From Chloroflexus aurantiacus J-10-fl (GTDB lineage: Bacteria > Chloroflexota > Chloroflexia > Chloroflexales > Chloroflexaceae): a stretch of DNA of 64,000 bases. The notes beneath the pieces are model-generated. The model was not told the DNA's origin. It saw nothing but the letters and a program-made list of their open reading frames with translations, and did no database searches. The stretch covers positions 3,968,001 through 4,032,000 of the forward strand of contig NC_010175.1 of NCBI RefSeq assembly GCF_000018865.1, in the 5' to 3' direction. A program made the translations under genes and the position numbers. Every line of letters starts with the position of its first letter. The stretch's first letter is position 1. Positions 13,502 through 41,360 of the stretch are shown piece by piece.

Positions 13502-16156
13502 TTAGCCTGAAACACGGTTGATAGCGTCGTCGAGACCAGGGTAGTCGGGTGCAATCTGTTTCAGAGTCTGGAAGGTTGCCAGTGCTTCGTCCCATCGTCC
13601 CTGCTCTTCGTAGGTGCGACCCAATCCGAAGTAGGCACTCGTGTATGATGAATCAAGTTCGATAGCGCGTTTGAACATCGACTCAGCTTCCGGGTAGCGA
13701 TCACTCAGGAAGAGGCTCCATCCCAAACCATTGAAAATCTCTGGATTTTCATTGTCGAGTTGCAGCGCCTTCTCAAACGCTTCAATCGACTCGGCATAGC
13801 GATCCTGGTATTGCAGAATCCAGCCAAGACCATTATATGCAAATCCAAAATAATCGTCGCGGGCAATGGCAGCACGGTAGGCCGTTTCCGCCTGTTGATA
13901 CAGTTCGCGCTGGACATTCTCGTCGGTTGCATCATAGCCCGCGAAGAGGCTCGCTTCACCCAGAAATGCATGGGCCACTGCGGAGTAGGGATTGGCATCA
14001 ATCACTTGCTTGAAATAGTCGATGGCCTGCTGCATATCGTTGTCGTCGAACGCCAATCGTCCCAGCCCAAGCAGAGCAAAACTTTCATCATCGTTCAAGT
14101 CTAGTGCCTGATTGAACGCCTTTTCGGCCTCGTCCGTCTGGCTGTTGAAGTAGGCGACCCAGCCCAGCCCGACCTGAGCCGGACTGAAATTGGGATCGAG
14201 GGCCAATGCCGCATTGAACTCATTCCTGGCACTATCAAAATCACGAGCCGCTGAGAGGTAAATTGTTGCCAGTTCGTAGTGGAAGACGGCCAGGGCAGGG
14301 TAGGCATCGATGGCCTGTTCGAGGCTGGTAATCGCCTGGTCGAGTACATTGGCGTCCTGACGAAGGGTGTAATCCTGCCCAAACGCCCATCCCAGCAAGA
14401 CCTGGGTAAAGGCTTTTGTCAAAGGATCGGCAGTCGCGAGGCGATCTTCAGCATCGCTGATAGCCGTGAACGCTTCACTCATCAGGTTGTCATTTCGGCT
14501 GTCGGCAGCATTGGTTGCCAGCACCGCCGCGCGTAAGGCGTAGCCAATAGCCGAAGATGGATCGGCGTCAATAGCACGTTCGCTTGCCTCACGTGCCTGC
14601 ACGACATCACCGAGCTGGAAGTAGATATAACCGGTAATCCCTTCACCAATAGCCTGCGCTGCGCCATCGTTGATGCCAGCCAACGGCTTTGCCGCCGTAA
14701 GTGCCTCTTCCCAGTCGCCCTTGGCCAGATACGCCCATGCCAGCCGGCTATGTGCCACCGGGTTGGCAGCATCGGCGGCTACAGCAGCCCGATAAGCCGT
14801 AATCGCATCGTCTAACCCCTGCGACCGCGCCAATGCTGCATCTCCTTCACTGATATGCGTTTCGGCAGGGTTGGTCGCAACCGGTGGCGTCGTCGGACGC
14901 AGCAGGAAGAAGGTGGTCAGGCCACCACCGATGAGCAGAACGCCAACAATCAAGCCCACAATCAGGCCAACCGGTGTTCGTTTGCCGGCGGTTGGCGCTG
15001 GTGTTGCCGGTACGTTAAACGGGTGTGGGGTCGGTGCCGATGGGCTGGCACTGTACGGATGTGTTGCCGGTGCGGCAGGTGTTTGAACGTAAACTGGTGG
15101 TGGCGTTACCGGTGTTGTCGGTGCGTAAGCGGGTGGTTGAGATGCCGGTGTGGTTGGGCCGTAGGCTGGCGGTTGAGATGCCGGTGTGGTTGGGCCGTAG
15201 GCTGGCGGTTGAGATGCCGGTGTGGTTGGGCCGTAAGCGGGTGGTGTCTGAGAACCTGCATTGGAAACAGCCGGCATACCGCGCTGTGGAGTGAGCGGGC
15301 GGCTCAGTTCACGCTCGCTCAAACCAACGGCCTGGCGCAGAGCGGCGACCATTTCCGCCGCTGAAGCGAAACGTGCTTCCGGCTTACGGGCTAACGCCCG
15401 CATAATCACATCCTCGACTGCGGGAGGTAAATCGCCACGCACGTCACGGGGTGGAATGGGAGCGTGGACAAGTCGTGCCGCCAGCATCGCCATCGGCGTT
15501 TCCGCTTTGAACGGAAATGCCCCCGTGAGCAGCTCATAAAGCATGACTCCCAGCGCATAGATATCGGTTGGTGGGCCGACATTGGGCAGCCCCTGGGCCT
15601 GTTCGGGAGACATATATTCAGGCGTGCCCATAACTGTCCCGGCCATGGTGAGACCGCTACTATTGGCTCCCGTGCCCCGTGCCAGGCCGAAGTCAGTCAG
15701 GTAGATCCACCCCTCATCGGTGATCATAACGTTCGAGGGCTTAATGTCGCGGTGAATAATCCCCTGGCGATGAGCATAATCGAGTGCTTCGCCAACCTGA
15801 GCGAGAATCTGGGCCGCTCGTGCCACCGGCAATGCACCCTCTTGTTGCAACAACTGCTTCAGGGTACGTCCCTGAATGTATTTCATCGCGATATAGTGAT
15901 AGCCCGCCACTTCACCGACTTCGTAAATCGGCATGATGTGCGGATGTTCCAGACGGGCTGCGCTACGCGCCTCTTGCCGGAAACGAGCGATATAGCTCTC
16001 ATCATTGGTTAAACCCGGCGGCAAAATCTTCAGTGCCACAATCCGATCCAGGTCGGTCTGTCGGGCCTTGTAAACCACCGCCATCCCGCCGCGTCCCAAT
16101 TCAGAGAGTATTTCGAACCGACCTATGGTTTGACCTACCAGAGATAATTCGCTCAT
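13502..16156 (-). CDS. Membrane Ser/Thr protein kinase with C-terminal TPR domain
   Basis: About 884 residues. The Hanks-type kinase domain (about 10-280) has the glycine loop ELGRGGMAVVYKA, the Lys in VALKIL, the catalytic loop HRDIKPSN, DFG, and GTPEYMSPEQ. A Pro/Thr-rich linker (about 295-390) contains nearly identical 12-residue PPAYGPTTPASQ units. One transmembrane helix (about 396-420) follows. The C-terminal 440 residues, predicted outside the membrane, carry around ten TPR repeats. It phosphorylates protein targets, presumably on signals sensed through the TPR part. I chose ATG 16156 (MSELSLVGQ) over the ATG five codons upstream on family grounds. Adenylate kinase and SDR genes follow closely, perhaps as an operon. 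Confidence 0.93.
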   Translation of the reverse strand: MSELSLVGQTIGRFEILSELGRGGMAVVYKARQTDLDRIVALKILPPGLTNDESYIARFRQEARSAARLEHPHIMPIYEVGEVAGYHYIAMKYIQGRTLKQLLQQEGALPVARAAQILAQVGEALDYAHRQGIIHRDIKPSNVMITDEGWIYLTDFGLARGTGANSSGLTMAGTVMGTPEYMSPEQAQGLPNVGPPTDIYALGVMLYELLTGAFPFKAETPMAMLAARLVHAPIPPRDVRGDLPPAVEDVIMRALARKPEARFASAAEMVAALRQAVGLSERELSRPLTPQRGMPAVSNAGSQTPPAYGPTTPASQPPAYGPTTPASQPPAYGPTTPASQPPAYAPTTPVTPPPVYVQTPAAPATHPYSASPSAPTPHPFNVPATPAPTAGKRTPVGLIVGLIVGVLLIGGGLTTFFLLRPTTPPVATNPAETHISEGDAALARSQGLDDAITAYRAAVAADAANPVAHSRLAWAYLAKGDWEEALTAAKPLAGINDGAAQAIGEGITGYIYFQLGDVVQAREASERAIDADPSSAIGYALRAAVLATNAADSRNDNLMSEAFTAISDAEDRLATADPLTKAFTQVLLGWAFGQDYTLRQDANVLDQAITSLEQAIDAYPALAVFHYELATIYLSAARDFDSARNEFNAALALDPNFSPAQVGLGWVAYFNSQTDEAEKAFNQALDLNDDESFALLGLGRLAFDDNDMQQAIDYFKQVIDANPYSAVAHAFLGEASLFAGYDATDENVQRELYQQAETAYRAAIARDDYFGFAYNGLGWILQYQDRYAESIEAFEKALQLDNENPEIFNGLGWSLFLSDRYPEAESMFKRAIELDSSYTSAYFGLGRTYEEQGRWDEALATFQTLKQIAPDYPGLDDAINRVSG
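15135..15242 (-). repeat. In-frame 36-bp tandem repeats in the kinase linker
   Basis: Three near-identical 36-bp units (on the + strand GGTTGAGATGCCGGTG onward) encode the PPAYGPTTPASQ linker repeats. The length is a multiple of three, so slippage would lengthen or shorten the linker without a frameshift. Confidence 0.85.
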
Positions 16157-31826: not shown

Positions 31827-32205
31827 TAGAACTTATTTCATCCAGGTTGCTACCTTTGTGATCACAGAGACACGGAGGGCACAGAGGATGGGCATAACCC
31901 GGGTTGCTACCGTGAGGCGTGACGTAGCGCGTCCATAGAAACTGGCTGCTCCTCACATCGTTCATGCGGTTACGCCATCCGGTGTTGTGTGCAACATCGT
32001 GCTGTACAGCCGTGGCCTGCTCACAGCATAGATGGCAACTTGAGTTATTTCATAAAAGCTGTGCGGTCGTGCTACCCACCATCGCACAGGCTCAGGAACA
32101 CTTGTCCGCTCACCACACCAACGATGCGGTTATTCCTGCGAAGTGATCTACTCTCCAGGCAGGCAAGTCCCTTCACCGTCTGCCCGCTTGATTGCCTCGC
32201 ATAGG
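31827..32205. mobile_element. Remnant of a TAGAACTT-ended element, interrupted by a MITE
   Basis: If the MITE at 31842-32045 and one copy of its 8-bp duplication are removed, the sequence reads TAGAACTTATTTCAT then AAAAGCTGT. This matches the right end (reverse complement) of the element at 34315-34588, TAGAACTTATGTCAT then AAAAAGCTGT. Weaker similarity continues to about 32110. The far end is uncertain; AGGTTCTGAA near 32200 could be a decayed terminus. Confidence 0.6.
31842..32045 (+). mobile_element. MITE-like element, copy 1 (204 bp)
   Basis: Flanked by perfect 8-bp direct repeats TATTTCAT (31834-31841 and 32046-32053). The right end is GCAACTTGAGT; the left end is a slightly eroded inverse (CCAGGTTGC). 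The interior has CACAGAGACACGGAGG, GGTTGCTACCGTGAGGCG and GGCTGCTCCTCACATCG, shared with the other copies. No coding frame is convincing. Non-autonomous element of unknown parent. Confidence 0.85.
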
Positions 32206-33993: not shown

Positions 33994-34091
33994 TATCACC
34001 ACAGAGACACGGAGGACACAGTGGATGGGTGTAACCTGGGTTGCTACCGTGAGGCGTGACGTATGACATCTACAGGAACTGGCGGCTCCTC
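33994..34091 (+). mobile_element. MITE-like element, truncated copy 2a
   Basis: Carries the left half of the element (ATCACCACAGAGACACGG to GGCGGCTCCTC), then stops abruptly where copy 2b begins with GTTGCTACC. The left inverted end is missing. Confidence 0.8.
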
Positions 34092-34309
34092 GTTGCTACC
34101 TTATATCTCACCACAGAGACACGGAGGACACAGAGAATGGGTGTAACCCGGATTGCTACCGTGAGGGGTGACGTATGACATCTACAGGAACTGGCGGCTC
34201 TTCACATCGCGCATGTGGTTACACTCTATGGTGTTGCGTGCAAGGTTGTGCTGTTCAGCCTGGCAGTCAGCCGCCGAGGTCTGCTCACAGCGTAGGTGGC
34301 AACTTGGAT
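34092..34309 (+). mobile_element. MITE-like element, copy 2b
   Basis: Begins within the left inverted end (GTTGCTACC) and ends GCAACTTGGAT. The interior is almost identical to copy 3 (GCATGTGGTTACACTCTATG, CTGGCAGTCAGCCGCC). No target duplication is seen, which fits the joint with fragment 2a arising by recombination or deletion. Confidence 0.83.
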
Positions 34310-34314
34310 TATAC

Positions 34315-34588
34315 TAGAACTTGTTTCAAAAAACATCTACCAGAAGTTATCTCATTCTACCGACCGACTCCAGGATCGTGACAGGCACACCGCATCCGCG
34401 TGACCAGCCGGATCAACAGCATGCCACGCACCGGATCGTAAGCACGGCTGGCGCGGCAGCATGGCTGCCGCACTCCAAACGACGCAACACACGGATGATG
34501 GGCGAGCAAGGCAACCAATGCAGCACGTGATGGCACTGGAGATGGTTATTAGAGCGCGATAGGACAGCTTTTTATGACATAAGTTCTA
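34315..34588. mobile_element. Second element type with TAGAACTT inverted ends (274 bp)
   Basis: The left end TAGAACTTGTTTCAAAAAA and the reverse complement of the right end, TAGAACTTATGTCATAAAAA, match at most positions over about 20 bp. It lies almost exactly between MITE copies 2b and 3. Inside is a hairpin repeat (34453-34471) whose surroundings recur at 42.7-42.96 kb. No coding frame. It is probably a non-autonomous transposon or a composite REP-type repeat. Confidence 0.65.
34453..34471. repeat. Dispersed hairpin repeat, copy 1
   Basis: GCGGCAGC-ATG-GCTGCCGC, a perfect 8-bp stem inside a longer conserved block running from CCGGATCG (34432) to GGCAACCAAT (34519). The same block recurs at 42873-42961 and partly at 42734-42788. 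Confidence 0.85.
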
Positions 34589-34809
34589 ACTCAAGTTGCT
34601 ACCTTTATCACCACAGAGACACGGAGGACACAGAGAATGGGTGTAACCCGGATTGCTACCGTGAGGGGTGACGTATGACATCTACAGGAACTGGCGGCTC
34701 CTCACATCGCGCATGTGGTTACACTCTATGGTGTTGCGTGCAAGGTCGTGCTGTTCAGCCTGGCAGTCAGCCGCCGTGGTCTGCTCACAGCATACGTAAC
34801 AACTTGAGT
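34589..34809 (+). mobile_element. MITE-like element, copy 3 (221 bp)
   Basis: The left end ACTCAAGTTGC and the right end ACTTGAGT are inverted relatives; the longer match is AACTCAAGTTGCTAC against GTAACAACTTGAGTT. The interior is nearly the same as copy 2b. No 8-bp target duplication is visible, as expected if its left flank is the end of the neighbouring 274-bp element or was rearranged. Confidence 0.85.
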
Positions 34810-40566: not shown

Positions 40567-40716
40567 GTCTTCCCTCCTTCCTCTTCTCGTCTTACCCAAA
40601 ACCGTAGTGATGACGGTTGGTTGTGGCGATGACAGCAGGAAAGGGTGTCATCACTGATGCTTTCATCATACCAGAGTAAGGGTAGTTTTGCCAGTCCGGG
40701 GGTTATACTACACGTA

Positions 40717-40933
40717 ACTCAAGTTGCTACCTTTGTCACCACAGAGACACGGAGGACACAGAGGATGTGCATAACCTGGTTTGCTACCATGAGGCGTGAT
40801 GAAGTGCGTCCATAAGAACTGGCTGCTCCTCACATCGTTTATGCGGTAATGCCACACGGTGTTGAGGGCAACATAGCGCCGATCCTGGCAGTCAGCTTCC
40901 GTGCCTGCTCACCGTGTAGGTGGCAACTTGGGT
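40717..40933 (+). mobile_element. MITE-like element, copy 4 (217 bp)
   Basis: The clearest copy. It starts ACTCAAGTTGC and ends GCAACTTGGGT (inverted, one mismatch) and is flanked by perfect 8-bp repeats TACACGTA (40709-40716 and 40934-40941). The interior is shared with copies 1-3. No coding frame. The triplicated 138-bp repeat begins just to the right. Confidence 0.92.
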
Positions 40934-40954
40934 TACACGTATGGAACATGTTTC

Positions 40955-41360
40955 GATGGCAAAGATGCGATTCGCTGGTGCAACCCTCTCGCTCTGAGGG
41001 GTGGGCTGGGGGCAGAGGCCCGTGTAGAGCGCATTGCGGTGCCGGTGCTGGATGAAACCGGCTCAACATCTGGAAAGAACGAAACGTGTCGTGATGGCAA
41101 AGATGCGATTCGCTGGTGCAACCCTCTCGCTCTGAGGGGTAGGCTGGGGGCAGAGGCCCGTGTAGAGCGCATTGCGGTGCCGGTGCTGGATGAAACCGGC
41201 TCAACATCTGGAAAGAACGAAACGTGTCGTGATGGCAAAGATGCGATTCGCTGGTGCAACCCTCTCGCTCTGAGGGGTGGGCTGGGGGCAGAGGCCCGTG
41301 TAGAGCGCATTGCGGTGCCGGTGCTGGATCAGGCCGGCTTAACACCTGGAAAGAATACAT
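40955..41360. repeat. Three tandem 138-bp repeats
   Basis: Units begin at 40955, 41093 and 41231 with GATGGCAAAGATGCGATTCG. They differ by only a few bases, apart from the end of unit 3. The period is a multiple of three and several frames stay open across all units on both strands. A 153-codon frame (40901-41362) exists, but it begins inside the MITE and has no family signature, so I do not call it a gene. Confidence 0.92.

Follow-up and report, generated by a model that had tools for sequence, protein, structure and literature searches.

We conclude, with a probability of about 0.92, that the repeat family called here MITE A is an internally deleted IS of the IS982 family, formerly moved in trans by a parent that has since decayed. 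The window analysed is a stretch of 64,000 bases, covering bases 3968001-4032000 of the 5,258,541-base single-contig genome of Chloroflexus aurantiacus (G000). MITE A is short and non-coding, has inverted ends and target duplications, and occurs in many copies; the earlier view that it encodes no protein of its own was supported. An apparently nameless repeat is now placed in a family, and a relic, a putative deletion product and nested insertions are found together in one chromosome.

Four copies of MITE A and one fragment are located in the window where the first-pass annotation had placed them, as borne out by re-reading and comparing the sequences (Table 1). Copies 1-4 show a mutual identity of 75-95%, and the corresponding interior stretch of each of them shows 83-95% identity to the fragment. 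ACTCAAGTTGC was found five times in the window at up to one mismatch, against 1.07 expected, and this number was reached in 1 of 100 shuffles. Single-strand folding is not unusual (z -1.50 for copy 4 and -1.05 for copy 3). The exact 8-bp repeats claimed to flank copy 1 (31834-31841/32046-32053) and copy 4 (40709-40716/40934-40941) were confirmed. Because the left end of copy 1 is damaged or variant, its duplication is open to three readings, namely 6 bp (TATTTC), 8 bp or 9 bp (TATTTCATA, left junction minus 3 bp). It was also observed that the fragment, truncated on both sides, directly adjoins copy 2, which is devoid of its outer 6 bp (33994-34309); a deletion between two copies, or their rearrangement, is the probable cause. 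Just to the right of copy 4 (window 40950-41150), a sequence starting GATGGCAAAGATGCGATTCGCTGGTGCAACCCTCTCGCTCTGAGGGG is present twice and represents another repeat.

Table 1. Coordinates of MITE A and MITE B (a second family of the same genome) in the window, the relic elsewhere in the genome, and elements of other genomes that have the same ends. Positions are those of the window unless a genome coordinate is given.
Feature	Position	Strand	Length	Remarks
MITE A copy 1	31842..32045	+		left end damaged or variant; alternative start 31840
Copy 1, left target duplication	31834..31841	.		TATTTCAT
Copy 1, right target duplication	32046..32054	.		TATTTCATA under the 9-bp reading
MITE B end hosting the copy 1 insertion	31827..31841	+		MITE B sequence resumes after 32053
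Internal MITE A fragment	33994..34091	+		both sides truncated; adjoins copy 2
MITE A copy 2	34092..34309	+		left end without outer 6 bp; no target duplication
MITE B copy between MITE A copies 2 and 3	34314..34588	.	275 bp	
MITE A copy 3	34589..34809	+		no target duplication
Segment of copy 3	34700..34792	+		in-frame resemblance to IS982 TnpA C-terminus (PHIAHVVTLYGVACKVVLFSLAVSRRGLLTA)
MITE A copy 4	40717..40933	+	217 bp	two preserved ends
Copy 4, left target duplication	40709..40716	.		TACACGTA
Copy 4, right target duplication	40934..40941	.		TACACGTA
Decayed IS982 relic	G000:790029			left limit uncertain; stops and frame changes; ends AGCAACGGGT
L139			895 bp	IS982 transposase, 148 bits; duplication TATTCTA
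L169			959 bp	IS982 transposase, 166 bits; duplication TATCTA
L200			985 bp	IS982 transposase, 176 bits; duplication TAAATA
L251			932 bp	IS982 transposase, 184 bits (whole-genome search); duplication TATAATA

The family extends over the whole genome. ACYCAAGTTGCYACC at up to one mismatch was found 113 times genome-wide versus 7 times for a reversed-pattern control, and a comparable excess was absent from 40 other genomes of the family, the seven congeners having 0-3 matches each. Copy 4 as a BLAST query gave 41 genome matches (40 of the 143 first-look candidates were scored). With four queries, two of the 217-bp type and two of the 318-bp type, MITE A was found at at least 85 places, some of them partial (E<=1e-8), in 482,797 bases fetched from the surroundings of end matches and transposases in this genome. 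Most lengths are around 205-225 bp (about 204-221 bp for the window copies), and there is a 318-bp subfamily. This subfamily also forms a head-to-tail array at G000:1975646-1977179, which consists of four units with a period of 331 and one 211-bp copy, with TATGATAATGATA between the units. The inverted ends, which had been taken to be 11 bp long, are in fact 15-16 bp (ACYCAAGTTGCYACCT).

We revealed that exact duplications of at least 6 bp flank 24 of 73 MITE-length end pairs, and 20 of these 24 have the form TA...TA. When flanks were mispaired, the mean was 1.25 and the maximum was 5 (2000 trials). This supports the earlier claim that the family moved by transposition with target duplication. 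The duplications were 7 bp in eleven pairs, 13 bp in four, 9 bp in three, 6 bp in three, 8 bp in two and 10 bp in one; all four 13-bp duplications belong to units of a single tandem array, and leaving out the array gives 20 exact duplications, 16 of them TA...TA. Thus the 8-bp rule that had been proposed from copies 1 and 4 is not supported; the lengths are 6-10 bp (13 bp in the tandem array), and the common feature is TA...TA. TA closes 53 of the 73 left flanks and opens 57 of the 73 right flanks. Since TA is present on both sides, it can be assigned to the element or to the target alike.

Empty sites were observed inside the genome. Copy 1 lies within an end of MITE B, TAGAACTTATTTCATAAAA, and TTTTATGAAATAAGTTCT, the inner part of this end reversed, was found at 122 genome places at up to two mismatches against none for the control. 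When the flanks of copy 1 were joined minus one duplication, 28 of 32 non-self hits in the fetched sequence spanned the junction (100% self-matches were left out, and several of the 32 hits, lying in a single tandem array, are not independent). Thus, the comparison with empty sites that had been proposed for other strains succeeded within this genome, where other MITE B copies show the empty site of copy 1. Among 67 end pairs 185-235 bp apart, the joined flanks of six are within four mismatches of the MITE B end that hosts copy 1; the difference is 0-3 mismatches at four of them (1949302, 2120173, 3142340 and copy 1) and four mismatches at 16000, and the sixth is copy 3, which adjoins a MITE B end and is not inserted in it. 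For copy 4, the left neighbour gene was matched in six of seven other Chloroflexus genomes, and the alignments stop short of the target. These data bear on the idea that MITE A is a REP- or ERIC-like intergenic repeat that does not move and has flanking repeats only by coincidence. Such a repeat would fit the 49 of 73 end pairs that have no exact duplication, and the CACAGAG motif also occurs in hairpin repeats elsewhere. However, the 24 exact duplications against a mispaired mean of 1.25, and the four copies whose joined flanks restore the MITE B end within 0-3 mismatches, speak against it, and we give it practically no credence.

MITE B has ends similar to those of an 855-bp PF01609 IS that has several copies in the genome (TAGAACTCATTTCAAAATTCGG), and this IS is likely to be the parent of MITE B. 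At G000:4984220-4985667, MITE B is seemingly in a tandem array, with six end matches at 286-bp spacing. MITE B is like MITE A in that it resides in the same genome, has a similar length and also occurs in a tandem array, but it differs in that its ends resemble a PF01609 IS and not IS982.

The ends of MITE A are also found in other genomes. A scan of the genome_contigs collection with TAACYCAAGTTGCYACCT detected at least 114 stretches in other genomes, where about 30 are expected by chance for the whole collection (arithmetic with equal base frequencies). Judged by titles, the hosts among the matches listed include Poribacteria, Chloroflexi, cyanobacteria, Armatimonadetes, Deinococcota, Gammaproteobacteria, Desulfobacterales, Bacteroidales, Ignavibacteria and Acetothermia, and end pairs with duplications are present in at least seven phyla among these matches. 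The matches listed contain 66 distinct facing end pairs, 65 of them with both flanks; exact duplications were found in 38 of the 65 and TA...TA in 34, compared with a mean of 1.86 and a maximum of 9 for mispaired flanks. Seven end pairs among the matches listed are 850-1150 bp apart, and four of them (L139, L169, L200 and L251) contain an IS982 transposase that scores above the 130-bit cut-off of the profile NF033520 (Table 1). L139 is hosted by Calidithermus, and the other three of these apparently intact IS982 elements by Rhabdochromatium, a Bacteroidales and a Chloroflexota MAG; all four share with MITE A both the ends and the TA-bounded duplications. In the other three IS-size pairs (L170, L171 and L183), the profile search detected no IS982 open frame, and these are probably ends of separate elements. 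The first-pass annotation knew of no named element with these ends; this can no longer be said, as the ends are those of one group of the IS982 family.

Another resident DDE transposase, such as that of the IS5-like PF01609 elements, could instead have moved the MITEs, and the 25 PF01609 matches of the genome make up at least three IS groups with multiple copies. However, an A-type end pair within three mismatches was found at none of the 25 PF01609 loci, the multi-copy groups have different ends (TAGAGCCTGTTATG, TAGAACTCATTTCA and CAGGAGTTACGC), and the four IS-size elements that have A-type ends and a transposase are all IS982. With PF01609 and NF033520 as the transposase families searched by profile in this genome, this makes mobilisation by another resident transposase very improbable, and PF01609 transposases were rejected as parents of MITE A for lack of A-type end pairs and for their other ends.

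Besides the ends, MITE A appears to retain a part of the IS982 transposase. Read in frame, its right half corresponds to the last codons of an IS982 transposase, although the resemblance is weak per copy. When the L200 transposase was compared with the 482,797 fetched bases by tblastn, all seven hits at E<=1 were within MITE copies and started at residue 221 or later (best E 0.005). The L169 transposase gave 11 hits in the fetched sequence, at least eight of them on PF01609-element loci, and the L139 transposase gave none. With a profile of eight IS982 proteins, the 354 translations of 59 copies gave 15 matches at E<=1 and none at E<=0.01, compared with 5 at E<=1 for 3540 shuffled translations; 14 of the 15 matches are on the + strand, and every displayed alignment falls at the profile's C-terminal end. 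Frame +0 of the MITE consensus ranked top of 12,006 translations (2000 shuffles in six frames plus the consensus's own six), with 9.4 bits against 6.9 for the next, and it aligns to profile positions 252-279, immediately ahead of the right end. The stop TAG of L139 is 14 bp from the element end, and the MITE consensus has it at exactly this distance. The L251 gene ends in that same frame with ...AQVAT-stop, an ending seen in at least one MITE copy (708503) too. For the left and middle interior of MITE A (about positions 17-110), no counterpart was seen in the intact IS982 elements.

A decayed relic of an IS982 element is present in this genome (Table 1). It matches the L169 transposase (E 7e-10) and runs on into DNA 83% identical to the MITE consensus over 82 bp (E 1e-18), both E-values being computed for a single 3144-base locus. 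MITE A therefore shares with IS982 not only the ends, as in L139, L169, L200 and L251, but also adjoining sequence, as in these 82 bp. The L139 and L200 transposases gave no good match to the relic, and its score against NF033520 was 16.9 bits (E 0.0035; cut-off 130). A genome search with the middle part of the relic returned only itself and two short matches (E 0.2 and 0.7). No IS982 transposase over the NF033520 cut-off was found in this 99.95% complete genome; there were 15 matches at E<=10, mostly on PF01609 elements, the best being 28.5 bits, and a whole-genome search with the L139 transposase gave nothing at E<=0.001. In addition, a search of the 482,797 fetched bases for a parent whose MITE-like ends lie 400-4000 bp apart was negative, the duplication-bearing pairs being all in the tandem array. 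As the genome has no IS982 transposase over the cut-off, the MITE A family looks orphaned. Thus, of the earlier proposal that a full-length parent acts in trans, one part stands, as such a parent must have acted; today the genome has just one relic and no IS982 transposase over the cut-off that could act.

Orphan families are not special to this genome. Among ten genomes with these ends, hand-picked from the loci listed and not random, six have an IS982 transposase over the cut-off, and three (G061, G064 and G066, with 39, 29 and 32 ends, respectively) have no IS982 transposase at E<=0.001 and thus possess ends without an IS982 hit. In Thermus arciformis (G063, L191), IS982 matches are below the cut-off, with 64.5 bits at best; its 30 A-type ends, many of them near contig ends, together with IS982-like frames, look like a multi-copy IS982-like element. 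It might also be considered that the copies are still moved by a live IS982 parent harboured by other strains of the species or by one of its plasmids. The species is represented here by one genome, and the transposases in six of the ten other genomes would be in line with this idea. It is nevertheless unlikely: this nearly complete genome has no such transposase over the cut-off, the seven congeners have no element-length match, and the mean identity of copies to the consensus is 87%, which indicates that the copies are not recent as a group.

Taken together, decay of an IS982 parent explains MITE A best, and the following course can be proposed. An internal deletion would have spared both ends, each of 15-16 bp, and roughly the last 30 transposase codons. 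The DDE transposase of the parent would then have moved the short element in trans into TA-N(2-6)-TA, duplicating the target, and the parent would have decayed afterwards, with one broken relic remaining. With only this relic left, the copies have probably lost their mobility, which a related IS982 would have to enter the cell to restore. We also consider, tentatively and with considerable doubt, that one 16-bp end (ACYCAAGTTGCYACCT) and a TA-bounded target are kept nearly unchanged in IS982 elements and MITEs of at least seven phyla, and that orphans, such as those of this genome and of G061, G064 and G066, could be re-mobilised by an IS982 from a distant phylum. If this is true, the shared end would be a common currency for cross-mobilisation between phyla. 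As nearly identical MITE ends persist in distant phyla, whether or not a parent can be detected there, the mobilisation of orphans by IS982 across phyla is testable.

The motif CACAGAGACACGG had been thought to resemble intergenic repeats of other bacteria and to point to homologues, but it turned out to be of little use for recognising homologous MITEs. When 40 relatives were searched at the DNA level, the internal CACAGAG part was all that matched, in six of the 40, and at the loci inspected the motif lies in other contexts, at several of them in inverted pairs. No element-length match of MITE A was found in the seven congeners. Motifs like CACAGAGGCACAGAGG were also observed outside MITE A in other Chloroflexota (L061, L065 and L067), as inverted pairs tens of bases apart.

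A literature search combining IS982, MITE and target site duplication returned nothing, although other IS982-linked MITEs may be described, and a search for the end and motif letters gave nothing related, judged by titles. According to the portion of a review used here, elements of the IS982 family have AC- ends, inverted ends with 11-32 identical bp, and direct repeats of 2-10 bp; the end consensus is AC(N)6T(N)5TT, with T at end position 9, and autonomous members carry a transposase gene and are 845-1282 bp in total (PMC7335449). MITE A resembles this family in its 5'-AC ends and inverted repeats of at least 11 bp, with ACYCAAGTTGCYACC at both ends. AC and T9 of the consensus are present, whereas positions 15-16 are CT and not the published TT (PMC7335449). 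Its duplications of 6-10 bp, with 13 bp only in the tandem array, fit the 2-10 bp of IS982 (PMC7335449). Unlike autonomous IS982 elements, MITE A in the window is about 204-221 bp long and has a C-terminal remnant only, with no transposase gene (PMC7335449). The TA...TA targets are not mentioned in this portion of the review, and a TA...TA target rule can be added to its description of IS982 (PMC7335449). An IS982-derived MITE is already published for Cardinium: in the part of that report used here, MITECca01 is a MITE of about 240 bp with an IS982-family parent, and the genome also has an eroded 250-bp copy of ISCca4 that retains part of the transposase 3' end (PMC9769881). MITECca01 is thus like MITE A in being derived from IS982, but intact parents coexist with it, whereas MITE A has one relic, and the host and the ends differ (PMC9769881). 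What is unusual in MITE A is the lost parent, the TA-bounded targets and one end spread over distant phyla.
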